A stretch of DNA of 20,201 nt from Ectocarpus siliculosus. Lineage: Eukaryota; Sar; Phaeophyceae; Ectocarpales; Ectocarpaceae. The position numbers and the translations under genes were made by a program. Below are positions 2 through 19,064 of this stretch, in pieces. The DNA is taken from positions 21,734-41,934 of the forward strand of contig FN648607.1 of NCBI GenBank assembly GCA_000310025.1, written 5' to 3'. The notes beneath the pieces are model-generated. The model ran no database searches, was not told the origin of the DNA, and was given only the letters and a program-made list of their open reading frames with translations. Numbering within the stretch: position 1 is the first letter of the stretch; each line of letters starts with the position of its first letter.

Positions 2-712
2 GCGACTCCAGGGAAGAAGGGAATCAGATGGGACAAGGTGGTAGAGAAGGTTTGGAAGGAGATAGGAGACGAGGAGGAGACGTTGGACACGGAAGGGTTC
101 GGGGGGTTCAAGACGAAAGTCAAGGAGATGCTAGAGAGTAGGGAGGAGGCAACCCTTTGGAAGAAGGTACGAAGCGAAGACCACTTGGAGATATACGGGA
201 AGTTGAAAGAAGGGATAGGGATGAAGAAGTACTTGGACGGCCCCATGGACTATGCGAAAAAGCTGAAATTGCAATTTCGAGTAGGCGATCTGGACTTGCC
301 AGAACGGAGGAAGAGGTATACCAGCCGTAGGAGAGAGGAAGAGGAGGATAGACACACATGTCCATGTGGCAAATCGGAGGAGAGTAGACCCCACATAGTT
401 GGGGAGTGTGAGTTGTACAGGAAGGAAAGAGAGGATCTCGAGGAGGAAATGAGACAGAGAGGGTGTGACATGGACAAGTTTGGTAAGTTAGACAACAGCG
501 AAAAAACGATCGCGATAATTGGGGATAGATGGTGGGCACAAGAGGCCCTAGAGGACGGGGATAAGATGTGCAAGAAATTTTTATGGAGTTTGTGGCAGAA
601 ACGTAAAGAGCTCCCAAATGTTGGTGGTGTCTCTAGTAGGTGTAGGAACGGTGCTCCGTCTCGAAAGGGACGCGTGGTCAATGGTCAAATGACTACGGCA
701 AGCAACAAATGA
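2..712 (+). mobile_element. C-terminal fragment of a LINE-type (non-LTR) retrotransposon ORF
   Basis: The frame is open from the window edge to a TGA at 710-712, so this is the 3' end of a longer ORF whose reverse transcriptase core would lie outside the window. The fragment is rich in Lys, Glu and Arg. It carries a segment reading LKLQFRVGDLDLPERR, followed by a Cys-x-Cys ... His ... Cys zinc-knuckle-like cluster (CPCG at about 358-369, then PHIVGEC near 391-411). This arrangement, a basic helical region then a C-x-C-H-C cluster, is typical of the region after the reverse transcriptase domain in many LINE elements. A WW-containing helix (DRWWAQEAL) follows. No endonuclease or polymerase motif is visible because that part is missing. 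The element lies antisense to the minus-strand RING gene, just past its last recognisable exon. A 14-base C run and a CA repeat follow the stop; there is no clear poly-A tail. Confidence 0.7.
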
Positions 713-717
713 GTACG

Positions 718-766
718 CCCCCCCCCCCCCCTCTCTTCTCACACACACGCACACGCACACACACAC
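718..766. repeat. C homopolymer followed by CA dinucleotide repeat
   Basis: Fourteen consecutive C (718-731) are followed by a CT-rich spacer and an imperfect CA/CG repeat up to 766. The repeat abuts the proposed splice donor of the minus-strand exon 767-859, so the intron begins with GTGTGTGTG on the minus strand. The same tract separates that exon from the LINE fragment. Confidence 0.85.
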
Positions 767-859
767 CTGCGGGTGCGGAGCGTCAGCCAGGAGGCGATTC
801 ATCTCCTTCATCTGGGTCCTAAGCTTCACCCGTACGGCCTTCGTCACGGTGAAAGGAAT
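767..859 (-). CDS. Exon of minus RING gene: basic segment ending APHPQ
   Basis: On the minus strand an acceptor (GGGCAG) at 860-865 opens 31 codons, IPFTVTKAVRV ... LLADAPHPQ, ending at a GTGTGTG donor. It matches the plus-strand exon 11458-11547, where TTEKIRV and AMAPHPQ fall at corresponding positions. Both exons are phase 0 at both ends and both end APHPQ directly at the donor. The homology is what supports this small exon; it would not stand alone. No domain is recognised. Confidence 0.65.
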
Positions 860-3142
860 CTGCCCGTTCACAGCAGCAGGTTTTGTACATATGACAGGCG
901 TTGATATTTCGCACCGTCGTAAGCGTAGGTTTACAAGGTGCTGCACCACCGTAGCATAGAAATCCAAGTCACTAAGTTGAATATTGTGCCCGGCCTTGCC
1001 ACACCCACCATATCCCCCGGGGTGTGCGGACCGTCTTTTACTGTTCAGAAACCGATACTGATTGTTCCTCCGGGGGTTACCTCGGGCAAGAGAACGGCGG
1101 GGAGTAGGGCAAGTTGAACGTGTATCATTGCGAGGTTGTCCCTACCTGTTTTTCAGGCCTTTCACGCCGTGGTAACCCCTCACATCTATCCCATAGACGT
1201 GGCGATATGGTGCGGGACTATAGCACTAAACAGAGAAATTTATCCGTGCGCGTACGTGCGCAAGAGAGAGAAAGAAAGAAATGCGAATGCTTCTTGCAGC
1301 CAAACCGCAATACGCTGAGCGTCCGTGTGCTTCGTACTGGCATATGACCCCCTTGCGCAAACCCTTCCAGCTACAACTTGCAACAGTTGTCTACATGCGA
1401 CGCAGCTCGCTGACACGGAGCCTTTAGCACCGAAAAGAAAGTTCGCTATGCCGCGTGCGCTTCATACTCACACTCACCCCAGAGAGCGAAGACGAAGTCA
1501 AGGAAAGCAATCAAGAGCAGCAGTAAAATACCGTAGGTTGCATAAGATATCACACCCCCTGGACACCGATTTTCAAAGCTTGACTACTCGGCAGGAAAAG
1601 CAGTGACGGTGCCGAAAATGGCGGAGTTGAAGCCGTCCCGTCGAGACCTTTCCGAACACGTATCGTTAGCTTTCGGCATCCTCTTGGTTGTGGAGTAATC
1701 CAGCGTTGCAAATCAGTCAAGAGGGGGGTGACATCTTGTGCGACCGACGGTAGCAGATGCCGGCCGACAACAACAGTCAAAACGAAACTTTAGTGGTTGA
1801 AGTGCACGTCGAGGAATTCTTCGGGGATACTCTCTGCCTTTCAAGTACACAGAAAGCAAAACATCACCACGAACAAGTGTCCCCATCTAAGCCTTTACCA
1901 AGGGCACGCGGGAATTATGTTCTAAAAACTCGTACATATATATCATCGAACACCACACTCGCCGGTTTTCTGCACTTGAACCTCTTGGCTCTCGCCCGCT
2001 TTATCTGGGCCTTCGTCCGGACTTGGCTAGGGTCGTGCTGGAATCACACAAACGCACACGAAACAAGAGAAGAATAGACGAAAAAAAGAAGTTGACTTGG
2101 TCTCTGTTTTTGCTGTTGCAAGAGGCTCACGAGGCTTACGAACGATTGAAGAACCTGCCTTGCGGCTTGGGCACAGGTTTGAGACAAAGGCTTTAGACAA
2201 GACAACGATGCATACCACCTTTGTGGGTACCGTAAGTCGAATTTTCGTTGTGGATTCCTTACTACAAGAAGAGGCGTTCTTCTGTAGGTGCCTTGTTTCG
2301 AGGAAAAGAGACCTCTGCGGACTATCGCCGAGGCAACGAATTGTCAGGGGGGTGGGGGAGGAGGTATCTCTTGTCTTACGTGGTGAGGCTTGTCTTTCGT
2401 GTTGAGGGCAATCATGATTAAATCGATGGGCAACGATTAACCCTAGAATGTTTTAGTTTAGCGAGGGTTCTGTCCTGGGTGATCGAAAAATGCATACTAT
2501 CACAATATTCGCGAAAGCCGAAACAAACAGCAACCACAAACCAACTACAGTTGTACTGTACGCATCACACGAAATAAAAAAAACATAACGACGTCAGGGT
2601 GTACAAAGAGAGCACTCCGTTCGTCGGAACAGTAACCACCACCATGCCAAGCATAAGAACGAACTCACAGGCGTGCGAACGTTGAACTGCTCGATCTCCC
2701 TCAGGGAGAGTGTCTTGGTGATGGACCTGACCTCAACTCGGCAAACGGGGCACGCGCTTTCGGTCTTCGTCCACTTGTGGATGCACTTGAAGCAGAACAC
2801 GTGGTTCTGTGGAGGAGAGAGGATCGTTCCAATCGAAGGTGACGGGCGGGGGACAGCGGCAGCACTCACGCATCTGAGGATACCCCTTTCCTCGTCTGGA
2901 AGCAAGCCCTGACAAATGGGGCACTCCCCGCCTGCTACCATGGCCTTGCGACCGGCCAGCGCTAGATCTGCTTCCTCCGTCAGAGGGTTCGGCCTGAAAA
3001 ATCGTGACGAAATGGGTGAAACGAGGAAGAAGAGGAGACGCATCAACGAAGCGTACTTTCCATGTCAAATAGTGAGGGAGGTCGGCGGAAGGGCTCAAGT
3101 ATTGAGGGAAAACAAGGACGGGAAATGGCTGACGGGTGTCTC

Positions 3143-3175
<33 letters not shown>

Positions 3176-4523
3176 GTCTATCGGTGCGTGTCACTCCAAG
3201 TATTATATGCTGTACGAGCGTTGTCTGCTACATACTACTTCCGAAGGACACCATATACCATACCTCAACACCCGGGGGAGATATAGGGTTCCTCCCCTGC
3301 GTTCCCCACTCTTCTTGCGACTTTTCGATTAAAATTTTTCAATGGGAGGGCGTTTCTGATGAAAACACCGCAAGAATCACGTCTCACAAGCATGCGCACC
3401 ATCCTCAGGTAAGTCCACGATCGGACGACCGATCGCGGAAAATATAGATATTGTAGGTAAAATTCCGGCTCAATTTCTCATCTACTTCGAAGTACAATAT
3501 ATTTGTCAGGCTGACTTTTTACCGGCGGAGGAGGATGGGTTGGTGACCGCGGTGGCAGGCACGCGCGTACCAGATGAAGACTCCAAAAAATGTTTAATAT
3601 GTGTCGAACAAAAGAGCCGTTAGCGTGAGAGTCCAACGAGTCGTACACATCGACGTCGGTGGAGGTTTCCCACCCTCCTTCCTTCCGTGTGCGCTCGCAG
3701 GAACGCATCCTAATTACCCGCCACGACACATGCATGCGTGTCGTGGAGTCCAAGCACAACGACAACTACGCACACCTTTACCCTCTCGGGATGATGACCG
3801 TGCCTCCTCCGCGCGGGGTCGCTTCTTTCTCCTCCTCTTCCTCTTCCTCCTCCTCCTCCTCCTCCTCTTCGTCGTCACCTTCTCTTTGATTGCGCCGCCG
3901 TTTGCGGTTGCTCCTCGGTCCGTTACCGCTACTACCACCGCCGCCTGAGACTGGTGAGGGGGGGGGCATGATGAGAACTATTAAGCGAAACGGTTGAAGC
4001 GGTGAATATCGAGTTTTCTTCCCGCTCTCCCGTAAGTTTGACTTCGGTCGAACGACCGGCTTCTCAGGAACACGACGCCTCAGTCCCGAGGCGAGCGCTG
4101 ACGCAAGACACAAACAGCACTGCCGGCGGAAACACCTAGATAGATTGAGAACAAACCTAAAGCCATCACCCGAAAAGGCCCAAAAACACCGCGAGTCGAA
4201 AGTTGGTAGAGGTCTTCGAGGAACATGAAATACACGAAACCATTCACAAATAGCAGGCCGACGTGACGAACTGGGTACTACAGATTGCGGCTAAACACGT
4301 CAATTATGGACGAGAAGCTCAAGCCCCACACCAGCGCACACGTCCTGATGCTGTTTCTCCTGCAGCTGTAGCTGCTGCGTTACGCCGCGCGATCAGCAGG
4401 GGTGGCTCTGGGTAGGCCCTGGTGATGCTACAGGGGTGCGGCGTCGGGGCCGTGCCGGGATAGTACTTGGAGTAGCCGAGGTTGATCCAATGCGCGTTTG
4501 GGGCCTTGGCGACGTTGTTGTTG

Positions 4524-4569
<46 letters not shown>

Positions 4570-4618
4570 CGCTATCGTCGCCGTTGTTGTTATCCTTTTG
4601 TATCCTCGGGGGTGCCAT
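767..4618 (-). CDS. RING-finger protein gene, minus-strand copy (partial, multi-exon)
   Basis: Likely RING-type E3 ubiquitin ligase. Proposed exons, in transcript order: 4618-4342, 3950-3782, 2993-2870, 2806-2669, 859-767. Reading phases join cleanly (1, 2, 0, 0). The start is the ATG at 4618-4616, chosen because the next residues (MAPPRIQ) align with the start of the plus-strand copy (MDPLRRT). Order of parts: Asp/Ser/Asn-rich stretch; motif GY-x-KYYPGTAPTP; Gly-rich, basic and poly-Glu segment; C3HC4 RING with spacing C-x2-C-x13-C-x-H-x2-C-x2-C-x10-C-x2-C; and a basic exon ending APHPQ. Trp after the sixth metal ligand and Pro after the seventh fit an E2-binding RING. The gene continues past 767, where a donor leads into the LINE-containing stretch, so the C-terminus is not seen. 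An exon between 2669 and 859 may be missing from this model. I do not recognise the protein outside the RING. Confidence 0.7.
860..2668 (-). other. Long intron of minus RING gene; no convincing gene inside
   Basis: About 1.8 kb lies between the RING exon donor (GTGAGT at 2668) and the APHPQ exon acceptor. Open frames on either strand are short and show no recognisable domain. The plus copy has an extra Lys-rich exon at the equivalent place (10738-10812). I looked for its counterpart and found only a weak resemblance near 2130-2190 in an incompatible phase. Direct joining of the flanking exons keeps the frame. Confidence 0.45.
2669..2806 (-). CDS. Exon of minus RING gene: second half of RING
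   Basis: Acceptor CCACAG at 2807-2812, then NHVFCFKC, a Lys-Trp pair, and ACPVCR. This supplies His4 and Cys5 to Cys8 of a C3HC4 RING. A short tail follows (TLSLREIEQFNVRTP) up to a good GTGAGT donor. The exon is 46 codons, phase 0 at both ends. The matching plus-strand exon (10040 onward) has the same acceptor position and one extra residue between Cys6 and Cys7. Confidence 0.85.
2870..2993 (-). CDS. Exon of minus RING gene: first half of RING
   Basis: Acceptor TTTTCAG before 2993 opens a 41-codon exon (plus one base completing a split codon) that ends ECPICQGLLPDEERGILRC at a GTGAGT donor. It supplies Cys1 to Cys3 of the RING. The plus copy (9024-9148) also has 41 full codons and reads RCPICQDLLPEENRGIVKC at the same place, with the intron after the same cysteine. 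The intron to the next exon is only 63 bases (2807-2869). Confidence 0.85.
3138..3180. repeat. TC dinucleotide microsatellite
   Basis: A run of TC units with a few G interruptions lies inside intron 2 of the minus-strand RING gene. The pyrimidine run is on the plus strand, so it is a GA run in the transcript and is not a splice polypyrimidine tract for that gene. Confidence 0.9.
3782..3950 (-). CDS. Exon of minus RING gene: Gly-rich, basic and poly-Glu linker
   Basis: The acceptor at CCCTCACCAG (start 3950; a second AG six bases on would start at 3944 in the same phase) and a GTAAAG donor after 3782 bound a phase 1 to phase 2 exon. It encodes a Gly/Ser segment, a basic patch (RSNRKRRRNQRE) that could be a nuclear localisation signal, and about 14 consecutive Glu from a GAG/GAA repeat. 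It joins in frame to the exon at 2993. The plus copy has an unrelated Asn/Asp-rich exon in this place, so support comes from phase and splice sites rather than homology. Confidence 0.55.
4342..4618 (-). CDS. First exon of minus RING gene: poly-Ser and conserved KYYPGTAPTP motif
   Basis: ATG at 4618-4616, in a good context (A at -3, G at +4). It encodes MAPPRIQKDNNNGDDSDS, then a poly-Ser run from a (CAG)14 repeat read as AGC, then Asn, then WINLGYSKYYPGTAPTPHP, SITRAYPEPPLLIARR. Over about 33 residues 22 are identical to the plus-strand first exon. The donor after 4342 (GTGTGC) is weak but gives the phase 1 end needed by the next exon; another GT 11 bases on would also fit. The motif is not one I can name. 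Confidence 0.65.
4527..4568. repeat. (CTG)14 trinucleotide repeat
   Basis: Fourteen perfect CTG units. On the minus strand they lie inside the first exon of the RING gene and are read as a Ser run. Length variation would change the protein by whole residues. Confidence 0.95.
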
Positions 4619-7505
4619 GCTGACGTGATGGCACGGGACTCCGTGGATGACTCCGGTGGCTCGCTGGAGCAAGATGCTGGTCCGATTTTTCCAGCGGTTG
4701 CGGAGCTGAGCCAGCTGTCTATGCGGCTAGCTGTCTTACGCCCGGACTCGCCGTCGTTGCTTGTTATAATCGTGCTTCGGCAGTGAAACTTGTCGTCCCT
4801 GTGACAATAGCGGGTACTTGCTGCTTGTGGTGTTTCGGCGGTGCAAGGGATAGGGATGGAAAAGAAAAGCAACGGGTGGCCAGGTAAGAACAGCCGGATT
4901 TTTCTGGCGTTCTCACATTGCTGTGCATACAGTACATCAGTTTGCCTACAGTACTGCAAGTGTGATAACAATCCAGGACAACTGCCCTGAGGACTTGTAT
5001 CGTTGGTAAAAAGTTCCCATCTCGTCGCGAGCTACTGCTGTATCATCTCCAAAGACACGCTTAACACTGAAATTCAGTACCACTGAACCCCATGCCACCT
5101 CGCCGACGAGAGATCCTCGAACAGCAGTACAGTACTTGCAAGAGCGGGGTTCTGCGATGCAACGCGCTCCACCGTCTGCGACGACTGACCCACCGCCCAC
5201 CGTCCCTACTAGATCCGGCTCTTTCGCCGCCCAGAACCATTGGCGTCAACCGCTACTACACTATGAGGGCCACAACGCAACACGCCCCTTACACACACAC
5301 GTCGGGCGGATCGCACACACGGCGGTGTTCAAGAACCTGTATAAGTAGGTAGTAACGAACAGAGCAGTGCACCGAACCGAGTGCCAGGTGCGCAGCTGGG
5401 TCGGTTGGTGGAAACATGTTGTATTTATGGACCCTACAACGGCTACAATCTACAAAACAAGACGGTTGTGTAATGAGGTGTTTGCTGTGGACTTTCCCTA
5501 CGATTCTCAGAGGCAATGGGCACTCTTTCACTCCATCAAAAGCGTGGTAAATACCTCTTCCTCCTTCCCCCCCGACTAATCGTGGTGTTGTCGCTGCTGC
5601 TGCGTGCCGAAACATGTAAACGAGCCGTTTGGTATACTGCTGCTGCGAATTTGCGGACATTTTTTCACGTGCCTGGTTTGGAAGATCAACCACATGGTGC
5701 CAAGGATCCTCGTCCGCCAAGACCAAAACCTCCACCAAGCGTGAGATAGGTCAGTTCTCTCTCCCTCTCTCCCTCTCTCCCTACCTCCCTCCCTCTTTGC
5801 GTCTTTGGGCCCCGCACTGCTCTGTCTCTGCTGCTCTGCTGCTCTGCTGCCTCTCTCTCCTGGCCGGGGACGCGACGACCACTTCCCCGAACCAACATGC
5901 AAAATGCGGCGGGACTACAGAGAAACGGCACATTATCAAGATCTTAGATCTTACAAGGTCTAGATCTCACATGTAGATCTTAGACATCTAGGCATGAGAA
6001 CATCAGAACCAACGATAACTTGGCGGGCGCAGCCTTCGTCACTCTCTCTGGCTCGCGTTCAGAGACAGCAGGTCTGGTGCACAGACTGAGTACAGCTGCT
6101 GTAGATGAGGTGATTTGCGGACAGTAGTCCTTTGGTCTTTGTATACACTGCTGTCGACAACGTTGCTCTTTCTCACTTAGATAGCCCCGAGGGACACGAC
6201 AAGTGCGATCCTCTTGCTTGTTCTCTTCAGGTACCGTGATTTTCTCCCACCGATCCTGTGTGTGCATGCGCATTGCGAACCTGGCCCCCCTTTTGTGGAG
6301 CCCCATACCTCACGCCCCTCAGCGGCGCGAACAAGACTCGCCGAGTTATCCCGGTAAGACGCTAAACGACAGGTCCGATCGAGTGTGCTGTTAAGTCTAG
6401 ACTACATACCATGCTATGGAGTATGTATGTAGGTCGAATTTGTGTGTGGAGTGGTCGGCCACCTCTGCGCCTGTGACCCTCGAACCGACCCGATACCTAG
6501 TAAGGATGCCAGGGCTTTGCTGTTACTGTTGCAGCTTTCGAACACCGTTGGGTTCGAAACCACAAACGTGTGTTCTCTGCCCCTTCCTCCCCTCTATCCT
6601 TCTCTTCTGTCGCTAGAAGCTACAACATGGTTGGGATCGGCTCCTGGCCTATAGTCCAAGTTCGCTTAACCACCGTTGCGGACGGACGGTAAAAAACTAC
6701 AACCCGCACTCTTGCCACGGACAAGATACGTGTGTGTATGAAATATTAATACACCTCAAGCACGTAATGTAGTCTAGGCCACCAAGTTTTTACCCATCAC
6801 CTGGAACACACAATTCAGAACGCATGCTAATCCGCTTCGGGGCCACGGGTCAACCCTGGACTTTCGTCGGAGGCACCGAACCTTCCGTGTTGGGTGTCTC
6901 TTTCATTAGCATCTTTGCGCAGTTCGGCCGATCAATGAAAACACACGTGAAATTTGTGCTGTGCTTTGAAAGCATGAACATGTGCGAGCGAAGCTGCTAT
7001 TAATAGACGAATCCCCTATGCGCCTAGACTAATAGGAGGCTCCTATATACTTTGGAGTACATTGAAACGCGACCGGTTCACACCGTCCTACCTGGAGCCA
7101 GGGACAACTACAGTACATTGTGGTGAAAACACTCGTGCGATTTGGTGGTGTTGAATGTGTGACGTTTCGTCCAGACATGCTCCTCATGTCGGAGCACGCA
7201 TGATGAAACGACTCAATGCCCCCCGGCACCCGGGAGAGACAAGAAGAGTTATTTCCAGGAACTCAACACGACAACAAGAGAGGTTGGTGGCGCTACCAAC
7301 AGTACACCGCTCCGTGGCTTCTCTTTGAATCTTTAAAGGGGAAATAGTAGTTCGATCAGCGCACTGATGGATCTCTCCTCAACGTTGTAGGACGGTGGAG
7401 CCTCGTCCCCGGTCAAGGACCCGAGAAGACATACCACCACCGACGTCAAGAACGACACAGCTTCACCGCTTCCTCTCAGTCGCCGAGCACTCAAACATCT
7501 ACCAC
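4619..7505. promoter_or_regulatory. Shared upstream region between two divergent RING genes
   Basis: About 2.9 kb separates the two proposed start codons. Open frames here are short, overlap on both strands and show no recognisable domain or credible exon series, so I call no gene. It must hold the promoters of both genes unless first non-coding exons lie elsewhere. I see no convincing TATA box. Notable contents are a CT-rich tract at 5757-5795, the sequence ACAGTACTGCAAG at about 4945 with a near copy (ACAGTACTTGCAAG) at about 5127, and a cluster of AGATCT palindromes at 5938-5980. Confidence 0.5.
5938..5980. repeat. Cluster of four AGATCT palindromes
   Basis: AGATCT occurs at 5939-5944, 5946-5951, 5962-5967 and 5975-5980. 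The first is part of the 8-base palindrome AAGATCTT. The cluster sits near the middle of the divergent intergenic region. A regulatory role is speculation. Confidence 0.6.
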
Positions 7506-7659
7506 ATGGACCCTCTGAGGCGGACGGGAGGAAGAGACGATGAACCCAGGTCTCACCTGGTCGATCCCGGCTACTGCAAGTACTACCCTGGCACCGCGCC
7601 GACGCCGTACCCGTCAAAGATCACCAGGACCTACCCCGCACCAACTTTGCTGGCCCAGC

Positions 7660-7695
<36 letters not shown>

Positions 7696-7721
7696 ATGCG
7701 CTAGCAAACGAAGGCGAGAAG
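7506..7721 (+). CDS. First exon of plus RING gene: KYYPGTAPTP motif and poly-Gln
   Basis: ATG at 7506. It encodes MDPLRRTGGRDDEPRSHLVD, then PGYCKYYPGTAPTPYP, KITRTYPAPTLLAQR, then ten Gln from CAA(CAG)9 and HNALANEGEK. The motif segment is homologous to the minus copy, but there the trinucleotide tract lies before the motif and is read as Ser. The end given (7721, donor GTTCAA) is phase 0 and does not fit the phase 1 acceptor of the next exon. The only phase 1 donors nearby (7762, 7802) are poor. The true end, or an extra small exon, is unresolved. Confidence 0.6.
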
Positions 7722-10700
7722 GTTCAATCATATCTATGGCGGGTTTCCCTACCACAATTGTGTGCTCTTGCACCTCTGCGTTTCTTCTTTTTGTTTTCGT
7801 CGTTTTTGTCTGTGCTAACAGCTTCGCTGCTCAAAACGCGAATACAACCCTTTTTTCTGTCGCCCGAGAGGCAATGACTATTGCCGTGGGGGTAGGATGC
7901 GCCCCGGTGGTCTAGTTGGTATCCTCGAAACCTTCTAGAGGTCAGGTCAGGGGTTCGAATCCTGGCGTAAGCGAGCTTTTCTTGCAAAGTGAGTTTTTCT
8001 CTCGCTTCCGCTTCTGGACTAGTGGATAGCGCTAGTTCGTGTGTACACAGAGGGAAGAGAGTGCTGAACTCTTCTCGCATTAAAAATTGAAGGCGAAGTA
8101 CCGCAGGAGGGGAGGGTAGAAAGGGGCTCTTCTGTGTGACCACGGGTTGGAGTAAACGGCACTAGTGCTGTGAGCGCTGATTTGAAGTGAAGACCAAAAA
8201 AACAAAAAAAAGGATCTATTATGTTTCTTCATTTCAACAGGGACCCAAAACATCTCCAACACTGACATCGACAGCCCCCACAAAGCAGGATAAAACACGT
8301 AACATGTTTCTCTTCGCTAATATTTAGTCTAGACCTCCTGCGGGCAGGATGTGTAACAAGGTTGCATACCTCCCCCTCCTTATGCTGCCTCAAACTATGA
8401 TGCCAGTGTTGTCGCTTCCTGCTCTGTTGTAGAGCACAGCAGTGTTGTCCCCATTGGCATGCGGTGGTGTGGAATTGAAAAATGGGGCTTTTCCCCTATG
8501 CTACAAGCACTGTCCTAGTTACTTCCTCCTTTTCTCGGCACAGATACTAACGTCAGCGCCTCCAACAACAATTCAGACGGCGACAGTAACGACTGCGAAA
8601 GCAACGATCCAAACAGCCTTGACAACAACAACCAGGACGCCGGAGCTGCCGCAACGGCAACAGGTAAGAACAGGGTATCTGGGGTCACAAAAAACGAAGG
8701 AGTGCTCACTTGTATTTTAGACCGTCCTTGATTTCTCATACGGTCAGGCTGACGACCAGCATTTGGTTCAACCCCAAGATCATCGACCGGAGTCGATACC
8801 CCATGTTCCGTAACATGACACGCAGGAGATGGCAGTTGTTTGATATGTTCTAAGCGAGACCGGCAGGTAGGAGCATGTCTCATCGGCGCACGTGGTAATG
8901 AGACGTGCAGCGCGCAGCCGAACCACGACGTTTCGAATCTTTGCACGGCAAGTGCTTAACATCCTTCCTTGTCCCCAACTGTTTCTCCACGGTTGCTACT
9001 ACCGCCATGCTGTACATGCGCAGATAATGCCGTCAACGCGGCCCATCCGAGGACGAAGCGGAAGAACCCTGAAAAGGTCGATGATAAGGCCCGCTGCCCG
9101 ATTTGCCAGGACCTCCTGCCGGAGGAAAACAGAGGCATCGTGAAATGTGTGAGTGAAAAATCCGGCACGGGTGTGTTTGTGTGGTTTGAATCCAAGGGGC
9201 GTGGTTGGCACACAGCAGGTAGAGAGTTCCTTCCACGGAACGTCCCATTTACACAGCGGCAAGATTTCGCCCATTAGTGCGGATGGGTGTGTGTCTAATC
9301 GCACGAGGAACGGTCTCATGGTCGAAGGAGCGCAAGCAGGGAACACAAGACTACCAAACGAAGTCCATTCGAACAATTTAAAGTGCGAAATGTCGCCTCG
9401 GGGTTGAGCGAAGGGTCTCGAAGTGGACCGCCTTCCTGGAGGAATACAGAGAGAAGCATCGTCAAAGCGCGAGCGAATACAGTTAAACCCTCGGAGCCCA
9501 AGCAACACGAGTACGCAAGCGGCGTTTCGCTGGTGGTCTAGCTGAGCATAGCACACGAAGCACCCCAGCACGGCAGAGCGCATAGCGTAGCAAAAACGAA
9601 CTGTTATACGGGTGCTACTGATTTGGAGCGGAAGGTTGATCTGTGTCATATCAAAACTGAGCTACATGAAAAGGATTTTTCTGTTTTTTCCTGCTACGAT
9701 CTCGTTTTGGTACTAGCGGTTTTGGCCAGTTTTGCCACTGTTGGTGCAGTCTATTGGCTGCATTGCATGAAGCCTTTGAAATCTTCACCCGAAAACCTCC
9801 GGACTATGCGATTGTTCATTGGCGCACGAAGCCACACACGTACAGGCCGCGGAACACGTCCGGGGTTTTCTGCCGCTAGGGCCTTCAGCTGCGTATTGTT
9901 GTCTTTTTTTTTCAAGATGCTTCTCTCTATGTACCACTTGCACTCCATTTCACTCAAACAGAGACAGCGGTTTCGTGCAATGTGTGCGGTGATTCTGATG
10001 GTTGTTCTCTTCTTCTTGTTTTTCTGTTGTCGGCCGCAGGGACACGTGTTCTGCTTGAAATGCGTTCTCCAGTGGGTCAAGAAGCAGCAGAACAGCTGCC
10101 CAACATGCCGCGCGAAGGTGTGCCACATCAAGAAGACGCTCAGCTTGGCGGAGGCCCTAGAAAAGAATGTGAACACGGCTTAGAGAGTTTCATGTCAGCT
10201 GCGTCCACTGTTTCCGTTCTGTTTCGTGTGCTTCGTAGTCACGTTCCCTCTGTCTGTTTTTTCCCTCAATGTTTATTTTATTGGATCCGACCGCCGCGCG
10301 GGTGTGGTGGTCGAGTTTCCTCGTGGCTGTTGCAACAGCGAGCGGTTCCATTCCCCCCCCCTCTAATCGAAAGCCACTTACCCAACGAAGATGTTTTGGG
10401 TGTATTCTTTGTGTTTTTTGGGGATAGATTTGCTAAAACATGTTCTCTATGTGTTAGTCTTTGATCGAAAAACCCATATGAATTGAACCCAGAATTTACC
10501 ATGCCTACATATCTCTCAAAATCGATACGCACATTATTTTGTTCGGACGGTCATTGTTTTTGGTTGGTTGGTGTGCAGCATTGCAGCGCCTGCTGTTTAC
10601 ACCGGGTGCCTATTTAGCACCTGCCTGTCAACTAACTGCATACCACTGGCGTCTCATGCAATTTTTTTCACTTGTTCGTCGTCGATTGTTCTTGTCCTTT

Positions 10701-12884
10701 CCGTGCAATTTTCTCGGGTGGTCAATCCGCGGGGCAGGCTAACCGGAAACCTCTGACGAAAGCCCAGCTGAAGAGGACGAAGAGGAAGTCTACTATCGGC
10801 AAGCCCTTCCCGGTGAGCCTTCCTTTCCACAGAAAAAAAGGTTGCGTTAGCTTTGATCGGGCGGCTTGAGATCTCCCGAATCGCCGGAAGACTTCGTTAT
10901 CATCCCACGGTAGTCACTGACATTACAGTATCTTAAGGTTGACAACAACTGCAGTGCTGTAAATTGTCGCAGCAGGACATGTTGATAGGCTTTTGAGTCA
11001 TTTGTCTTGCGGCCTATCACACGCGTGTTATTCACGTTGCGGATACAGCATTTCGACGGAAGGATTTCATCTGAGCAAAACAGGAGACCTTGTCTTCCCA
11101 CCTTGCCTCCTTCCTCTTATTTGACGATGGTCAAGAAGCACGCGCTCACCGACTGGCAGGGGTATAGATGGCAGTGCGCGCCCATACAGCGAAAGCGACG
11201 TTCTCCAGCAGTTGAACAAGGGTCACGTAGTAGGAGGAAGGACAAAACAGGAGGAGCTCCGTCGAGTTTTTTTTTAACCCTCAGCCCAAATTTTGTACTC
11301 TCCAAGTGTCGGAGTGGTGTTAAACGCCGTCCCCTCGAGTTCCCGTCGCCAACGGCGACAGCATTGCTGGCGGTCGCCCTGCTGCTGCCGTACCGATGAT
11401 GCCCCGTGCTGTTGTTGTTGCCGCTGATGGGTATACTACACCGGGCATCGAGCGCAGAAGCCCGACATCACGACCGAGAAGATTCGCGTCCACAAGAAGG
11501 TTAGCCGGGAACAAATCAGGCAGAACGCCATGGCGCCACACCCTCAGGTGAGGGGGAGACAGCCCCAGAGGCCGTCCCACTCACCGCCTCCCGGGTCTTG
11601 ATCGGATCGACTCTTCCGCTCTTCCGCCGGAGCGCTGCCTACAGCGTTTGCGCTCCAAAAAACACCTCTCTGACCCTAATGGTTTGTTACTTTCCCATGC
11701 GTTTTTCGCTCATCATGCTTGAGGCATGCATCACCACACGAAAAAGGAGAATTGTGCGCGGTTCTCAATACCACGGGCTCGGGTAAACTTACATGAGATC
11801 GATGCCGTAACCAAAACATATTTGAGCCTTAGGCTCCACCGAGACCGGTTATAATTTCTACGGTGCGAACGGACGTGTACAATCTCTAGCGTGCGCGCCA
11901 GCGTTATTATAGTGCCAAACAGAGAGCGTGCCCCGACGTCGGGAAAATCAAAAGACCCACAAACCCCGGTTGTGAACTCCCGATATCGGGAGTTTCCTAG
12001 GGTCCAATACGGCGCCAACTTGTGTACTTTCATATGAATCGCAGAGGAGGCTTTCTGCGCCCCCTTGAAGCGGGGGATTTTCGGCTGAGAAGGCACGGGC
12101 GAGGGCAAGCAAGATATTGCGAGGGAGGCAGGAGTAAGAGTAGCAGCAAAGAAAATTCTACTCTAGGGCGACAAGATTGCGCTACCTGACACGCACATCG
12201 CTCGTCCTTCTTCTTGAGACAGGCGCCAGGGGGGTTCCTGCACGCGCAGGAGCAGGCGGAGGCGGCAGCGGAAGCGGCACAGGCGGTGCCTGACGCACAG
12301 CCAGACCAGGTGGGGGGTAATAGCAAAGGCTTGAAGCTTCGGTAGCGTTATGTAGGGCATGCTGTTGGCATTGGCCGTCTGTTGGAGGCGCCATAGATGA
12401 CGTCGGGAAATTCTGCTCGCAGTCCCCTTTTGTCGCGGCAATCGTTTCCGTGTGCCCCCGTCCTTTTCTCCGCGGCAGCCGTTTCCATCACCACCCCCTT
12501 CCTCTTCCCCCTCCCACCCGACCCCCCACCGCCCCCCTCCGCCGGAAATCCAACACCAGGTGGAAGCCATCGTGGACCAACAGGTAGCCATCGCGGTGTT
12601 CTCGAGTTCCCCCCCCCCTCCCCCTGCTACCCCGCAAGTTCCCTCGCCCCTGCCGCCGTCGTCGCCGCGTTCTCTTGCGACGGACCTTGAAGACCGGCGG
12701 GTAGCGATCGAGGCCGACCGCCGGGCGTTGTTGGAGTCTACCTCAGCTTTCAGGGGGCACCGCAGCGTCGGCGGGGGGTCCTACGTTGGAGGAGCCGGGG
12801 GGGCGAGGTCGATTGGTGACAGCGGAGGCGGGGTCGGTGACCGTGTCGGCGAGGCAAGCCTTGACGTGAGAGTGGAAAACAACA

Positions 12885-12915
<31 letters not shown>

Positions 12916-14828
12916 GGTCGGTGGTCGCGGATGGAGATCGACTGTGAACATAGGCAACAGCAGCAGCGGCGTCAGCAGCGACGGGGGTGGGGATGGCTCT
13001 GGAAACAGTGACGCGGACAACAGCAACAGCAGGAACAACGCCGGCGTGCGCACCGGCGGGGCGGCAGAAGCCGCGGCCCAAGAATCTAGCTCGAATCGTG
13101 ACGTGCAAGGAGCAGCGACATCGAGCGGCGGAGACAACCTCGACCATGACGACGACGACGACGATGGTACGGGTGACGGCGTCGGCAACATCACCACGCT
13201 CGGGCACTTGCTGTCGGTCTTGGGCAGCCGTAGGATAAGGGTGTCACCAAACGGTGGTATTGGTGGTATTGATGATGGTGGTGGTGGTGGTGGTATTGCA
13301 GCCGCCGCCCCTAGCTCTGTCCCGTGCTCACCGCTCCTGCCCTCATACAGCAGGCGTAGCAACAACAACAAAAGCATTAGCAATAGCAGCCACGGCGTCG
13401 GGAACCCAGCCACCGACCCGGAAACCAGAAGTGCGGCGCAGGCGGCCATGGCAGTCTCTCGAGCGGCGTCTCGGTACACCTCGCTGGTGCCAGAGCAAGC
13501 GTTGGCAGTGCAGGGACTGGCAGCCCTCGAGTCATCGCCGACGCTGCGGCAGCTGCGCGCGGTCGCCAGGCTTGTGGTCGGCGGCAGCGCCTCAGCTGGG
13601 ATGGCAGGTGCTCCGGCTCTGGCAAGCGTGTCACGGAGACGGCAACCGCAAGACGGGTTAGGACAAGAGAGCAGACAAGACCGGGACGACGAAGCAGGCG
13701 TGTTTGGGAGGCGAGACGGCGGGAAAAGCAACGGCGAGGAACGGGGTAACTTGCTTCCAAGGATCGACAACGACGACAACCGCAGCGACAACATCAGCAG
13801 CAGAGGCGGCGGCAACGGGTCTGAGGAAGAGCCCTGTGTCGAACCCGCCTCTCGACGCACAGCGGTGGGGGAGAGGGACGTCAGTGAGTCAACAATTTTG
13901 GTGCAGCAGCGTTTGGCCTAAAACATTTCGACCAAAGCAAACGACGACAACCCGTTGTACAAGCGATTAGGTTAGCAATCATGCCTTCCTTTTCCCCTAC
14001 GGGTCGTCTTGCATGCAGGCCACACGGAAGAGCGCGACGAGTTCGCGTTTCCAGGAAGGAACGACAACGACACTACTGCGGTGAGTTTTTTTTGCGCTTT
14101 TAGGCGAGTCGAGCACAATGAATGCTTTCGGCAGTCGTTCAAAGGAAACATGACATGATTCCCACCCCACAACATTTCAACTGAGATCGGACGATGTCGT
14201 TGCCGAATGTGACTTTTTTCTCGAATGCCTGCCTTGCTGATGGGTTTCAAGTATGTCGTGGACAGTCTTGAGGCGTTTCTCCGAAATGCCTCGCACAACG
14301 AACCACATACATACATTTTGATGCCATCACGGACCAACTTGAAACACCGAAACCAAAACGTAGCATCTTCCCCTGACGGGCTCCTCGCGCCAGGGAGGAA
14401 CCACCGGCTCGGCTTCTCCCATCCTCAGCGACTCTTCGGCTACCGTTGCCTGCGGCTCTTCGACGTCCATCCCCGAAAGCTTTGCGCACACATCCGGCAA
14501 TGACGCTGCCCCCAGCGGCTCCATCAACGACGGCGCAAACACTGCTGTTGCCGGCGCTGAAGATGCCTGTGGTGGCGACGCCGATGGTGCCGGGGTAGCA
14601 GGTAGTGACCATGCTGGTGGAGGTATCAGTGTTAGCGCGAATGGCGCTGCAGGACCTGGTGGAGTTGCGATCAACTCCGGCAGGGTCCACTCGAGCCCCC
14701 TCAGCAGCAACAACAACAATAACAACAACAACACCTGCAGCTACCTGACGTGGCTAGAATCTAGGTCGGACTTCAACCATTGGCCATCGCCGTCGTCGGA
14801 CGACGACGACAACGCCGCCTCCGATTGA
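7506..14828 (+). CDS. RING-finger protein gene, plus-strand copy (about 10 exons)
   Basis: Probable RING E3 ubiquitin ligase of about 900 residues. Proposed exons: 7506 to about 7721, 8544-8663, 9024-9148, 10040-10168, 10738-10812, 11458-11547, 12223-12309, 12479-13883, 14019-14080, 14394-14828. From exon 2 onward every junction is GT/AG and phase-consistent (1, 0, 0, 0, 0, 0, 1, 0). Order of parts: motif GY-x-KYYPGTAPTP and poly-Gln; Asn/Asp-rich linker; C3HC4 RING split between Cys3 and His4; Lys-rich exons; Ala/Glu helix; a 468-codon low-complexity exon with two short helical stretches; and an Asp-rich end. Start ATG at 7506 aligns with the minus copy. Two weak points: no good phase 1 donor is seen for exon 1, and the exon 4 to exon 5 join uses a poor GTGAAC donor, otherwise translation stops at 10181. 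The C-terminal half is not a family I recognise. Confidence 0.7.
7665..7691. repeat. (CAG)9 trinucleotide repeat
   Basis: Nine CAG units preceded by CAA, read as poly-Gln in the first exon of the plus-strand RING gene. Confidence 0.9.
7898..8040 (+). repeat. tRNA-like element, possible SINE or tRNA pseudogene
   Basis: TGGTCTAGTTGG at 7908-7919 fits a Pol III A box, and GGTTCGAATCC at 7952-7962 is a perfect B box with normal spacing. Flanking TGCGCC (7898-7903) pairs with GGCGTA (7964-7969), like part of an acceptor stem. A TTTT at 7977-7980 could end Pol III transcription. The anticodon arm does not fold into a normal 5-base stem with a 7-base loop, and the acceptor and T stems are imperfect, so this is not a good functional tRNA. 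A second A-box-like sequence, TGGACTAGTGG, follows at 8014-8024 without a B box, which suggests a tRNA-derived SINE. It lies in the first intron of the plus-strand RING gene. Confidence 0.5.
8544..8663 (+). CDS. Exon 2 of plus RING gene: Asn/Asp-rich linker
   Basis: Pyrimidine-rich acceptor TTTCTCGGCACAG to 8543 and donor CAG|GTAAGA after 8663. The 120 bases read DTNVSASNNNSDGDSNDCES and on through Asn/Asp-rich sequence to AAATAT in the frame that joins the RING exon (phase 1 in, phase 1 out). The composition, disordered and acidic, matches later exons. The minus copy has a different exon here. Confidence 0.65.
9024..9148 (+). CDS. Exon 3 of plus RING gene: first half of RING
   Basis: Acceptor CATGCGCAG to 9023 and donor GTGAGT after 9148. 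A basic lead (RTKRKNPEKVDDKA) is followed by RCPICQDLLPEENRGIVKC, giving Cys1 to Cys3. The first RING Cys codon is at 9095-9097. There are 41 full codons, exactly as in the minus-strand counterpart. Confidence 0.85.
10040..10168 (+). CDS. Exon 4 of plus RING gene: second half of RING
   Basis: Acceptor GGCCGCAG to 10039, then GHVFCLKC, a Gln-Trp pair, and SCPTCR, giving His4 and Cys5 to Cys8 of the RING; then the tail KKTLSLAEALEKN. Read straight on, the frame gives VNTA and a TAG at 10181-10183. At the homologous site the minus copy has a GTGAGT donor instead. To continue, this copy would need the weak GTGAAC donor after 10168. Both outcomes are plausible: a short RING protein of about 200 residues, or a longer one, or both by alternative splicing. 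Confidence 0.75.
10738..10812 (+). CDS. Exon 5 of plus RING gene: Lys/Arg-rich segment
   Basis: Acceptor GGGGCAG and donor GTGAGC bound 25 codons, ANRKPLTKAQLKRTKRKST then IGKPFP. It is strongly basic and could act as a nuclear localisation signal or bind nucleic acid. Phase 0 at both ends. Confidence 0.6.
11458..11547 (+). CDS. Exon 6 of plus RING gene: basic segment ending APHPQ
   Basis: Acceptor GAGCGCAG and donor GTGAGG bound 30 codons beginning KPDITTEKIRVHKKVSREQ and ending AMAPHPQ. Homologous to the minus-strand exon 767-859, with the same phase and the same terminal APHPQ at the donor. This match is the main evidence that both genes continue well past the RING. Confidence 0.7.
11932..11994. 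repeat. Two perfect palindromes in intron 6
   Basis: CCCGACGTCGGG (12 bases, 11932-11943) and AACTCCCGATATCGGGAGTT (20 bases, 11975-11994) are both perfect inverted repeats without a spacer, 31 bases apart. They lie in the intron between 11547 and 12223. Confidence 0.85.
12223..12309 (+). CDS. Exon 7 of plus RING gene: Ala/Glu/Gln-rich helix
   Basis: A pyrimidine-rich stretch ending GAGACAG, then 29 codons (APGGFLHAQEQAEAAAEAAQ, AVPDAQPDQ) and a GTGGGG donor. Likely a short helix. Phase 0 at both ends. There is no recognised domain, and the minus copy counterpart would lie outside the window. Confidence 0.6.
12479..13883 (+). CDS. Exon 8 of plus RING gene: long low-complexity exon
   Basis: Acceptor CTCCGCGGCAG to 12478 and a strong A|GTGAGT donor after 13883. 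468 codons without a stop. It begins Pro/Ser-rich, then has a charged helical stretch (LATDLEDRRVAIEADRRALL), Gly runs from a GGC repeat near 12886-12914, a seven-Asp run, the segment ITTLGHLLSVLGSRRIRVSP, and an Ala/Leu-rich helical region around 13430-13610 (including LVPEQALAVQGLAALES). The end is Arg/Asp/Asn-rich. Mostly disordered, with possible helical binding segments. The opposite strand is also open over 1 kb because of the codon composition; the plus frame is preferred because its splice sites and phases fit both neighbours. Confidence 0.7.
14019..14080 (+). CDS. Exon 9 of plus RING gene: short acidic exon
   Basis: Pyrimidine-rich acceptor ending GCATGCAG and a GTGAGT donor. Joined to exon 8 by its phase 1 donor, it reads SHTEERDEFAFPGRNDNDTTA and ends in phase 0, which fits exon 10. 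Confidence 0.6.
14394..14828 (+). CDS. Last proposed exon of plus RING gene: Gly/Ala/Asn/Asp-rich C-terminus
   Basis: Acceptor CTCGCGCCAG to 14393, phase 0. It encodes GGTTGSASPILSDSSATVAC, a Gly/Ala/Asp-rich stretch, eight Asn, CSYLTWLESRSDFNHWPSPS, four Asp, and NAASD, then TGA at 14826-14828. The frame is open again after this stop. If the stop is spliced out, for example by a donor after 14764 and an acceptor at 14878, the protein could extend to about 15135. Confidence 0.6.
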   Translation, partial: GGTTGSASPILSDSSATVACGSSTSIPESFAHTSGNDAAPSGSINDGANTAVAGAEDACGGDADGAGVAGSDHAGGGISVSANGAAGPGGVAINSGRVHSSPLSSNNNNNNNNTCSYLTWLESRSDFNHWPSPSSDDDDNAASD

Positions 14829-15137
14829 GGCCCCAACGACACGCACCTCGGTACCGCGACCCGCCCAGGAGGACCCAGATGTCTTCGTCACGACCATCCT
14901 CGTCAATCAGTGTTCACGAGCACCCCCAATGCGGCAGCCACGGTTGCCTCTGCGGCGGCGTGGGCTGTGGTGGGCTCTGCTGCCGGAGCGGCTAGCGATA
15001 ACGACGACCCGTCGTTGGTTGGAACGGTGCACGACCGTCCCGAGGTTCGGGAGGATCTTCGCCAGCCCAAGCGCTCGCGGCGCTCGAGGGAAGTGTCCCG
15101 GGTATGGACTTTTCCGCTGGGGCTGGGGGGGTGGTAG
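14829..15137 (+). other. In-frame coding-like continuation after the TGA
   Basis: The same frame runs open for 102 codons to a TAG at 15135-15137. It encodes Ala-rich then charged sequence (AASDNDDPSLVGTVHDRPEV, REDLRQPKRSRRSREV) similar in style to the rest of the gene. It may be a further exon, a former coding region cut off by a new stop, or chance. Confidence 0.35.
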
Positions 15138-15827
15138 TGTTTCCACCGTGATGCCGAGGTCAGAAGCGAGTCTTGATCGTGATGACGGCCTCTGGAGACA
15201 CAAAACCATCATGAGAACCGAAGAAGTTTCGCAACAGTGGCGAGGAGGTGCGCAATAGAGTCCTTGTGGCTTGGTGCGCGGGGATGTGTCAAGACGGTGG
15301 GGTCAGGGCTCGCGCGGTTTCTCTTCCGACTGTCATAGGGAGAGTTCTGCTGAAACGTCAATCAGGCGGATCAGTTCAGTAGGTGCCGGCATCGAGAGTG
15401 GCTGCCTTTCCCCAGCCTGTCTTTTTTTGATACTTGGTTCAAACTTAACTACTGCTGTACTGTTGTCCATTAGAGTCGAAGTGCGCGGTCAAGAAAGAAG
15501 AGGCGAAATCGCCCTCCCTCTGGTGTTCGTGCTCAATCAGCCCTCGGCACTGGGGTACTTCGACAAAGTTGATACAGTTAAGAGCTACAAGATGTCGTGT
15601 GGCAGCAGAGAGGAGAATCATGGTGTGGACGCCCCTACCATCAGGTCTCTTTTGTGCTCGTTCTTTGATTTCAGCTGCCAGGATGGATGGGGAACCACCA
15701 AAAGGGGCGGAGGAAAGCTCACTCAGTATTGGGGGCGAGGGCGGGCGGGGTGCAACGACGCCGACCGATAATCTTGGGGGGATTTGGCGTTCAGTTGAAA
15801 ACCACCCCCCGACAGCCTGTGGAAGGC

Positions 15828-15905
15828 AAAGAAGGGTGTGGTGTGATGAGAGTGGTGTGACGAGTGGGTGTGAAGGGTGGGTGTGAGCATTGTGTGCGGG
15901 GGGAG
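15828..15905 (+). repeat. G/GT-rich tract
   Basis: Repeated GGGTG and GTGGTGTG words, ending in a GGGGGGAGGG run, on the plus strand. The G runs are numerous enough for possible quadruplex formation. No gene is called here. Confidence 0.7.
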
Positions 15906-16247
15906 GGTTGCTGACAATACAGGTTAGCGCTTCTTCGTTCGTTGCTCAGGCGATGCTATACGGGTATGGTATGCGAGCGAGAAAGCTCTGGGCATCGTGG
16001 GATACAGTCGGGCCCGATGCATGAGGTCGACGCTACCTCGAGGGGTCTTCGTCGAAATCCTTTGTGGGGGTGAAGTCGATTTACTGTAGTTGGTGGACTT
16101 GAGGTTACTAGGTTAACACGCGGGCGGTACCCGAACAACAGACGCAGGAGATTTTTTCGACACTTGCGCGCCAGCTGCTACAATTCAGTGTTGAACGGGA
16201 GTTGCATACTGCTAGATGCTCTCTTGTTTAGACTGAAAAGCTCTTGC

Positions 16248-16259
16248 GGGGGGGGGGGG
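16248..16259. repeat. G homopolymer
   Basis: Twelve consecutive G in non-coding sequence. Confidence 0.9.
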
Positions 16260-17497
16260 CGCCCTCTCTTGCCCGTGATTCGCGCATGCAATTTAGCGTA
16301 AAGAGAGGTGGAGCTTCTTACGATTGAACGAGGCGGGGGCAGTGTTGGGGTGCAATGTGAACGCCGCTGGGAGCACGGAGACGCTTAGTATCATGATGGC
16401 CTCGCTTCGCGTTTTGTTTGCATGCATCCGATGGTTTCATCGTTTGTTCTGAGGAAAGCAAGAAAAACATCGTAAACATTCTCTGCCAAAAACAAGAAGT
16501 CAGGTCCTATCGCTGCGGCAATAAGGGGCTGAGTCTTGCTCACAAGAGGGGTTTCTTGCGAGCGGGTCGCGACACTGTATGAATAGTGGTAGGACTGAAG
16601 GCCGCGTTTCTAACAGGGGAAACTTAAAAGTGTGACGACGGAAAACGCAGCAACAAGCGAAACGAGATAACACAGGGCATGTGGGTGCCAGCGGAATTTC
16701 ACCAATAGTGCCCCTGCCACCTACTGGAAGGTAATCAAGTATTCCCTCTCCCACTCGTTTCGGATCGACGAGCGAGCTGGCAGGCGTACTGCTGCTTGCT
16801 CCACCCCAACGATGCACGCTGGCTTTGGCCTGTCGACTTCTCTGTACGGGGGGAAATCACCGCGAAAATATGCCCTTCAGCGACGACGCTGGGACCAAGG
16901 GTCGTAAGACCGTGTACTCCTGGATTCTAGACATGAAGCTGTTTTGTTTTAGCACGAAAAGAATCATTCGTAATTAGCGGCATGTATGCAAAGTTAAGAT
17001 GTGAAAATACCAAGAAGATCGGTTCACCAAGAACCGGGGAATGAGAAATGAAGAAAGGCAGGGCAAAGCGCACCTCCAACTTAACAGAAAAACAAAACGT
17101 TCGAGTCTGAACAACATTAGCCTTTCAATTTCGCATGCCATCGGTGCACCGTCGTCGTAAGTAAATCATTGACCACGAGGAATTAAGACTTGCCCATAAA
17201 AGTACCGTCAATATGTAATAGAGCACGCGATAGTACCGTCCTAATCGAGGTTGATGAGACAGCAATGATGGACATCGAACCTCCACCCCACACGCCGCGC
17301 ACACCTCTCTCCGACAAAACGAAATTATGCGTGCTACGGTACTCATACGCGCACGTGACAGGGGTCGTTTCCCTGGAAGCAAGCCACCCAACCATGCCCG
17401 CAACCCCCACCTCTCGCTAGCCGTCAAGCACCCGACAAAAACGCAAGCGGTGAGCGCACAACAATCAAAACAAGTACCCCCCCCCCGGCGCCCCCCG

Positions 17498-17628
17498 CCA
17501 CCAAAATACAAGGAAGAACTGGGGAGCCAACAGAGGCGGAATAGATTCAGCACGAATCCATATAACAAAAAAACACTACCCCCACCCATCACCAAAACAC
17601 AAAGAAAACTCGGGGAGCCAACAGAGGC
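17498..17628. repeat. Imperfect direct repeat, period about 91 bases
   Basis: A unit of about 40 bases containing GGGGAGCCAACAGAGGC is present at 17498-17537 and 17588-17628. The shared 17-base core is exact at 17521-17537 and 17612-17628. A third, partial match (GGAAAACTCGGG) follows near 17654. Confidence 0.8.
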
Positions 17629-17767
17629 ACCCCCCCACCCACCCAAATGCATCGGAAAACTCGGGCAGGGATTCCGCGCCTCAAGACCGGTGCTGCTACG
17701 TTTACCACCGACGCCACACACAGGTACCTGCGTTGTCTTTTCCTGACACCCACGGAAGCCATGACGT

Positions 17768-17835
17768 ACAAAAAAAAAATTAAAAACAGAGAAAAGAAAA
17801 ACAGAAGCGAAAATTAGAAAAATAAAAATACTACA
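17768..17835. repeat. A-rich tract on plus strand
   Basis: The tract is dominated by A with scattered G and T. On the minus strand it translates to a misleading hydrophobic stretch of Phe, Leu and Ile. Confidence 0.8.
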
Positions 17836-18164
17836 AACCGTGACGTAGAGGAGTAGATATAAAGAAAACGCCGTCAAAAATAAATGGAACGCCAAGGGTC
17901 TCTTGCAGCAGGTTGGCTGCGAGGGGGCTGAGACGCGGGCGAAAGGTCCAAGAGGCGTTTGAGCGGGTTGTGCGTTGATTATTAACCTCCGTTCTTTTTT
18001 TTTCGTCCTTCGGTTCATCCGGTAGTCCTGTCACGTGCTCTTGTCCGCGTACGAGCTGACGGTATTCTGCTGTCGCGCGGTCCCCCAGAGCGGCACAGCA
18101 CCCATAAACAAACAAACACAAGCGCAGCAGCGACGAAGGGGGCAGGAGGGGGCGGACAGACGCG

Positions 18165-18330
18165 CGCGAGCGATATCATCGTCGTTGGCGTTTAAGCAAA
18201 GGGATTGTAGCGATGGCTTAAACGTGTACTAGTACTGTTGTGGGGCAGACACGCGAGCGCGCGATATCGTCTTCGTGGACGTTGAAAAAAGGATTTGTAA
18301 CGATGGCATAACCGTACCGTTGTGGATCGT
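18165..18330. repeat. Imperfect tandem duplication, period about 90-91 bases
   Basis: Two diverged copies share the landmarks GCGATATC (about 18170 and 18261), GGATTGTAGCGATGGC versus GGATTTGTAACGATGGC, and a CGTTGTGG-like end. The second copy is a few bases shorter. Confidence 0.75.
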
Positions 18331-18959
18331 TTTCGTTTCGCCACACGCTGAGCAAGATAGAAGTAGGTGGAAGTTTAGTGATACCGACGAGGGAGGGCGA
18401 AGCAGTGGAGAGGGGCGCTCATATAAACCGCGGCGGATGTGCGAAGTCTACCACTGAGCGCACAGAGAGTCGTTGAACCTCGCCGAATCATCGCTCGGTT
18501 CGTTTGAACCGCTCTATTTAGACCCATGCTTTCGTTGTTTGTCTTTTGGGTGAATGCTGGCTTTGAAGCGACTGCTGCTGGTCCCCCGTGACAATCAAAA
18601 CAACGACAGCGACGACGTGGGCTCGTTCGGTCCACCTTCGCCGCTACCCGTCATTCGTACACCAGCATTTCCACGTAGGCTCTCCCTTGACAGCACCGGT
18701 GACAACCACCATTACCGGTCCACAACAAATGAGCTCGCGACTCTCTGACGGTCACCAACACCTTGGGACACAAGAAAACCTATTCAGTGTTGGGTACCGG
18801 GTGGTTTAAAAGCGCGAAGAAAAGTTGACTCAAGACCTTTTCTTCAAGCCTCTGGCGGCAACAACCCACTACAATAACGTACCCAACACGACTCTACAAG
18901 CGCGAGGCTCTGTAGCCATCCAACTTCTACCGCCTCCAAAAACAGAACGGGCTTGAAAC

Positions 18960-19030
18960 GACGACGTGTGGAGACTGCTGTGCAACCGCACGGAAGGGGA
19001 GCTGGAACGAACGTGTGGAGACTGCTCGCT
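18960..19030. repeat. Short direct repeat around ACGTGTGGAGACTGCT
   Basis: The sequence ACGTGTGGAGACTGCT occurs twice about 50 bases apart, just downstream (minus strand) of the membrane-protein exon. Confidence 0.75.
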
Positions 19031-19038
19031 GTGTAAAG

Positions 19039-19060
19039 CAGCAGCAGCAGCAGCAGCAGC
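19039..19060. repeat. (AGC)7 trinucleotide repeat
   Basis: Seven AGC units lie directly after the donor of the minus-strand exon 19065-19170. If that donor is not used, the repeat would be read as a Cys run. Confidence 0.9.
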
Positions 19061-19064
19061 GCAC

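Follow-up and report, generated by a model that had tools for sequence, protein, structure and literature searches.

Two neighbouring RING-finger genes of Ectocarpus siliculosus are probably old copies of one gene left head to head

Two RING-finger genes of the brown alga Ectocarpus siliculosus, here called A and B, lie on opposite strands in a 20,201-nt stretch of contig FN648607.1 that we analysed as a whole (the window; C467:21734-41934 in the searched genome of 189,456,909 bases and 492 contigs). They are very probably two old, diverged copies of one RING-finger gene, with RING-type E3 ubiquitin ligases as likely products, and most likely arose by a local inverted duplication that left them head to head, and at least two further genes of this genome belong to the same family.

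To model the exons of both genes we relied on frame, similarity and the consensus at splice sites; positions are given in window coordinates. Gene A comprises six exons in a mutually fitting frame on the minus strand, from 4618 down to 767. Exon 1 (4342-4618) contains the start codon, a serine/asparagine tract and the GYSKYYPGTAPTPHP motif, the place of which was also recovered by a motif query of the genome; its phase-1 donor, GTGTGC, was picked to keep the frame. A basic and glutamate-rich linker (exon 2, 3782-3950) is followed by the first RING half (2870-2993), ending in RGILRC at a phase-0 GTGAGT donor, and by the second RING half (2669-2806), which reads NHVFC...CPVCR...ITKTLSL. The basic exon 5 (1963-2037, TKAQIKRARAK), of borderline similarity to its counterpart in B, has a GC donor, and the exon VTKAVRV...APHPQ (767-859), with the phase-0 donor GTGTGT, is the last readable one. 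Gene A can be read only to 767 because the sequence to the left of the window is N in the stretches taken (C467:15000-21733 and 8000-12000); on the right side, 3,566 of the 3,601 bases taken are likewise N. From position 1 to about 731-740 the window is occupied by the end of a dispersed repeat in antisense orientation to gene A, which stops ~27-40 bases beyond the last readable donor of A. This repeat belongs to a young family: at least 39 other copies align over at least 726 bases with 99-100% identity, besides at least six shorter pieces, all of these counts being lower bounds from the best 40 of 1237 candidates. Its plus strand carries an open frame with a CPCG...H...C motif, presumably akin to those of non-LTR retrotransposon proteins, for which no Pfam match was obtained.

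Gene B comprises ten exons on the plus strand, from 7506 to the stop codon at 14828. Exon 1 (7506-7713) contains the GYCKYYPGTAPTPYP motif and a glutamine run, and its end is ambiguous, with either a GC donor after 7713 or a GT donor after 7721; the latter version adds an exon at 8241-8298, placed by eye, and both versions are in frame. This donor, the donor of exon 1 in A and the GC donor of exon 5 in A are soft points of the two models. Exon 2 of B (8544-8663) is an asparagine/aspartate-rich linker. The first RING half (9024-9148) ends in RGIVKC at a phase-0 GTGAGT donor and the second (10040-10168) reads GHVFC...CPTCR...IKKTLSL, followed by the basic exon (10738-10812, TKAQLKRTKRK) and the exon TEKIRV...APHPQ (11458-11547), again with a phase-0 donor. 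The tail consists of an alanine/glutamine-rich exon (12223-12309), a long low-complexity exon (12479-13883), a short exon (14019-14080) and the last exon with the stop codon (14394-14828). In genome searches, an 80-residue piece of the long exon and the last 32 residues of the protein each matched themselves alone. A microtubule-binding Pfam model reached 20.7 bits on B (cut-off 25); the match covers the glutamine run and the linker, and we discarded it as compositional. Within an intron of B, at about 7899-7972, we noticed by eye a tRNA-like stretch, TGGTCTAGTTGGTAT...GGTTCGAATCC, which is perhaps a decayed tRNA or a tRNA-derived repeat; the ARAGORN tRNA scan and the Rfam scan of the window each returned no hit. 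Open frames were also listed behind gene B, in 14829-20201.

That A and B share an origin finds good support in the comparison of their predicted exons. Identical residues amount to 24 of the 40 aligned in the motif exon (score 140, maximum of 500 shuffles 47), 13/18 in the first RING half (82 versus 36), 21/41 in the second RING half (111 versus 46) and 12/29 in the APHPQ exon (44 versus 35), the maxima always being those of 500 shuffles. In both genes the RING is cut directly after the fourth cysteine by a phase-0 donor, and both have an extra shared 75-nt exon, the basic one, between the RING and the APHPQ exon; its similarity is borderline (score 37, maximum of 500 shuffles 37). The same relationship is visible at the nucleotide level, where 97 inverted-repeat pairs were found in 700-14828 and the 25 longest were inspected: just two of these are not of the CTG/CAG type, one pairing the motif exons over 102 nt at 75% and the other the second RING exons over 49 nt at 73%. 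The earlier note had described two genes on opposite strands with a common N-terminal motif, a RING split at one boundary, a later exon ending in APHPQ at a phase-0 donor and an equal order of parts; the exon models and scores bear out each of these features. It had also called an independent origin very unlikely, and we consider such an origin ruled out by block scores above those of all 500 shuffles. Its remark that both first-half RING exons have 41 full codons is right as a count and weak as an argument, because the acceptor phases differ (one extra leading base in A, two in B) and the corresponding count is 49 in gene C and 35 in gene D, the two further family members described below; the residues preceding the RING do not align between A and B.

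Genome searches with the RINGs of B, A and C identified two more genes with the same RING cut, both on the minus strand of contig C23. The RING of gene C lies at 3189016-3189150 (locus 3184500-3194000, L005) and that of gene D at 3233708-3233833 (locus 3229500-3239400, L010); the start codons, at ~3190831 and ~3235444, are 44.6 kb apart on the same strand. The motif query of the genome returned three places: besides B itself it matched A with 64% and C with 46% (E 1.13). Gene C carries the APHPQ exon and gene D a version of it that ends in TVHPE and whose acceptor is unplaced; in all four genes the exon models contain four phase-0 donors, which follow one another alike. Thus, by sequence, the family has four or more members in this genome, and the RING cut and the APHPQ exon are older than the split between A and B because C and D have them as well. 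The marks from which a duplicated pair had been deduced therefore do indicate common origin, and they are not specific to the pair, C and D sharing the RING intron and most of the others. Another 14 RING-like places were listed (E up to 0.001 with the B query and 0.01 with the others): 10 of them stay open across the RING boundary, an in-frame stop occurs in two (C16:3936558 and C27:4065091) and two begin at most four residues from the boundary (C2:5221953 and C27:2718599), so that the last four may or may not have the cut. As a possible fifth member, C27:4065091 was rejected by eye, its translation being APC11-like as far as we can judge. A genome search with the APHPQ exon of A found A alone and missed B and C, so exons this short are below the reach of the search and it is by the RING that members were counted; the family size and the genome-search counts are accordingly lower bounds, and further, more diverged members may exist. 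When the genome was searched with the 2.9 kb gap between A and B, no other place with the whole pair came to light. Downstream of exon 6 of D runs an alanine/arginine-rich open frame of 478 codons, which may be the tail of D. On viral contigs, 39 pattern matches were obtained, one of which was confirmed (39% over 41 residues).

Relationships within the family were assessed by an unrooted four-gene likelihood test on an alignment of 178 columns, gaps included, from five blocks. Over the whole alignment, the tree that separates A and B from C and D is best by 17.1 log units, with an AU p value of 0.997 compared with 0.0031 and 0.0032 for the alternatives. For the two RING halves together the alternatives are rejected at 0.023 each; for the motif exon with the first RING half their values are 0.009 and 0.009, and for the motif exon alone 0.085 and 0.050. 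The basic and APHPQ exons (0.30 and 0.30) do not decide between the trees. Because the tree is unrooted, the result is a split without an order of events; it matches the places of the genes, A and B lying together and C and D together, and makes the neighbours A and B each other's closest paralogues among the four members found. One might instead suppose that A is not the sister of B, that it belongs to the branch of C and D or has undergone partial conversion by C, and that its place beside B is chance. The second RING half invites this thought, A and C being identical there at 23 of 33 residues with a score of 142, compared with 111 for A and B. However, this exon taken alone still gives AB/CD as the best tree (0.097 and 0.142 for the others, neither rejected), the motif exon and first RING half favour A with B, and the alternative trees are rejected by both the whole alignment and the RING halves, which leaves such a placement improbable; the likeness of A and C may rather reflect faster change of B in this exon. 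It is more improbable still, to the point of being negligible, that A and B are unrelated genes made alike by convergence or chance. RING fingers are indeed common and short, and the basic exon alone does not exceed chance level. Against this stand the motif score (140 versus 47), the same RING intron and the same order of parts, and 10 of the 14 other RING-like places read straight across the boundary at which A and B are cut.

In 80 aligned codons of A and B, 26 residues differ; 18 base differences fall on first, 16 on second and 35 on third codon positions. This excess at position 3 is as expected under protein constraint, and the coding parts of both genes look constrained. Among the comparable fourfold sites, 13/24 differ between A and B, and the smaller counts for the other pairs are 9/13 (A-C), 8/8 (A-D), 4/8 (B-C), 3/7 (B-D) and 5/9 (C-D). 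When the exons were masked and 701-6050, reversed, was compared with 6051-12400, leaving out 12401-14828, three weak matches appeared (E 2.0, 5.4 and 5.4), compared with one (E 2.0) in the reversed control; hence no non-exon similarity above the control was found in 701-12400, and a recent palindromic duplication is ruled out. The duplication is old because 13/24 fourfold sites differ and no non-exon similarity above the control is left in that part, in agreement with the age proposed for the copies before. These data also bear on the idea that A is decaying or has been truncated, the repeat just behind its APHPQ exon having cut the gene, and that B alone works. The repeat ending ~27-40 bases past the last readable donor, the GC donor of the basic exon and the lack of a readable tail would fit such a fate, yet A has six open exons that keep the frame and a full RING including the arginine linchpin, and the repeat sits in what would be an intron. 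The preponderance of position-3 differences also speaks for constraint, in a test that cannot separate the branches of A and B. We therefore regard decay of A as unlikely and retain two old copies as the preferred reading.

All four proteins show the C3HC4 spacing with eight zinc ligands and an arginine directly after the last ligand, the linchpin position, and the Pfam model zf-RING_2 is above its cut-off in each of them; A was scanned over the RING only, as a peptide carrying a surplus V where the exons join. The accessible text of PMC7667886 places the linchpin, which engages E2 and ubiquitin, next behind the last zinc ligand, and names arginine as the commonest residue there. As the RINGs of A to D keep both the C3HC4 ligands and the arginine linchpin, all four genes likely encode active E3 ligases. 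In such proteins the RING would dock a ubiquitin-loaded E2 and the linchpin arginine would hold E2~ubiquitin in its reactive closed form, while partners may be chosen by the N-terminal motif, the basic exon, the APHPQ segment and the flexible low-complexity tail. The partners of A and B probably differ, because the linkers differ and the tail pieces of B have no match elsewhere. Against solved chains, the profile of A, B and C gave its best whole-sequence score with the ubiquitin ligase RNF4 (4ap4, 75.6 bits), a value raised by the two RINGs in that chain; single-domain scores are level between a herpesvirus RING (1chc, 45.2 bits) and RNF4 (2xeu, 44.0). RNF4 resembles our proteins in its C3HC4 RING, CGHVFC core and CPTCR end with the arginine linchpin, in an alignment that covers the RING only. 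The NCBIfam model rad18, which matched two of the three members scanned far below its cut-off, was rejected. The C-x-H-x-F-C-F-x-C-I-x-x-W core of these RINGs and the basic, valine-rich stretch behind it resemble what we take to be the RING of PHRF1. Unlike PHRF1, in which a PHD finger is expected beside the RING, the full model of B and, for C and D, the segments from the RING to the APHPQ exon gave no PHD match at E 0.1 or better, and since none was found where it was looked for, A to D are not filed as PHRF1-type. We consider it possible, though rather doubtful, that A to D form an E3 family specific to the brown-alga lineage with a conserved tail of its own, in which local duplication at two places produced one pair apiece, the linkers and tails then becoming specialised for different partners. 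A candidate for this tail is the succession of KTLS behind the RING, the basic exon and V.K.VRV...HP[QE]; in a literature search on ring finger or ubiquitin ligase in brown alga or Ectocarpus, none of the titles dealt with this family.

The gap between the two genes (4619-7505) measures 2,887 bases from start codon to start codon. Except for a CT-rich simple repeat, 37-48 bases of which match at seven other places, it matches nothing but itself in the genome, and it holds no residual similarity between the A and B sides. According to the accessible text of PMC7784034, 61.7% of the Ectocarpus genes flanking start-site-adjacent gaps are in divergent pairs, with a median gap of 409 bp, a common start-site region below ~600 bp and no correlation of transcript levels within pairs. 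The head-to-head order of A and B is thus unremarkable, such neighbours being common in Ectocarpus by the figures given there. In contrast to those pairs, A and B are paralogues, and their gap, measured between start codons, far exceeds the median; the ~600 bp limit refers to transcription start sites. The earlier suggestion of a shared 2.9 kb upstream region, in the sense of common regulation, is not sustained by this unique sequence without A/B likeness, and by analogy with the pairs in the cited text it is unlikely that the gap acts as one promoter for A and B.

The arrangement is therefore ordinary for such genomes, and A and B illustrate an old inverted duplication in a genome of a kind rich in divergent neighbours; the exon models of the two genes and the recognition of a family with four or more members are useful for annotation and leave the general view of RING ligases and of gene duplication unchanged. 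Apart from this family, we observed that the EsV-1-7 domain family, which the accessible text of PMC7457493 describes as expanded in brown algae, had matches in 0/14 control genomes. In Ectocarpus it is very large, with 880 candidates on many contigs, and all of the best 150 of these 880, which were scored, are over the cut-off.
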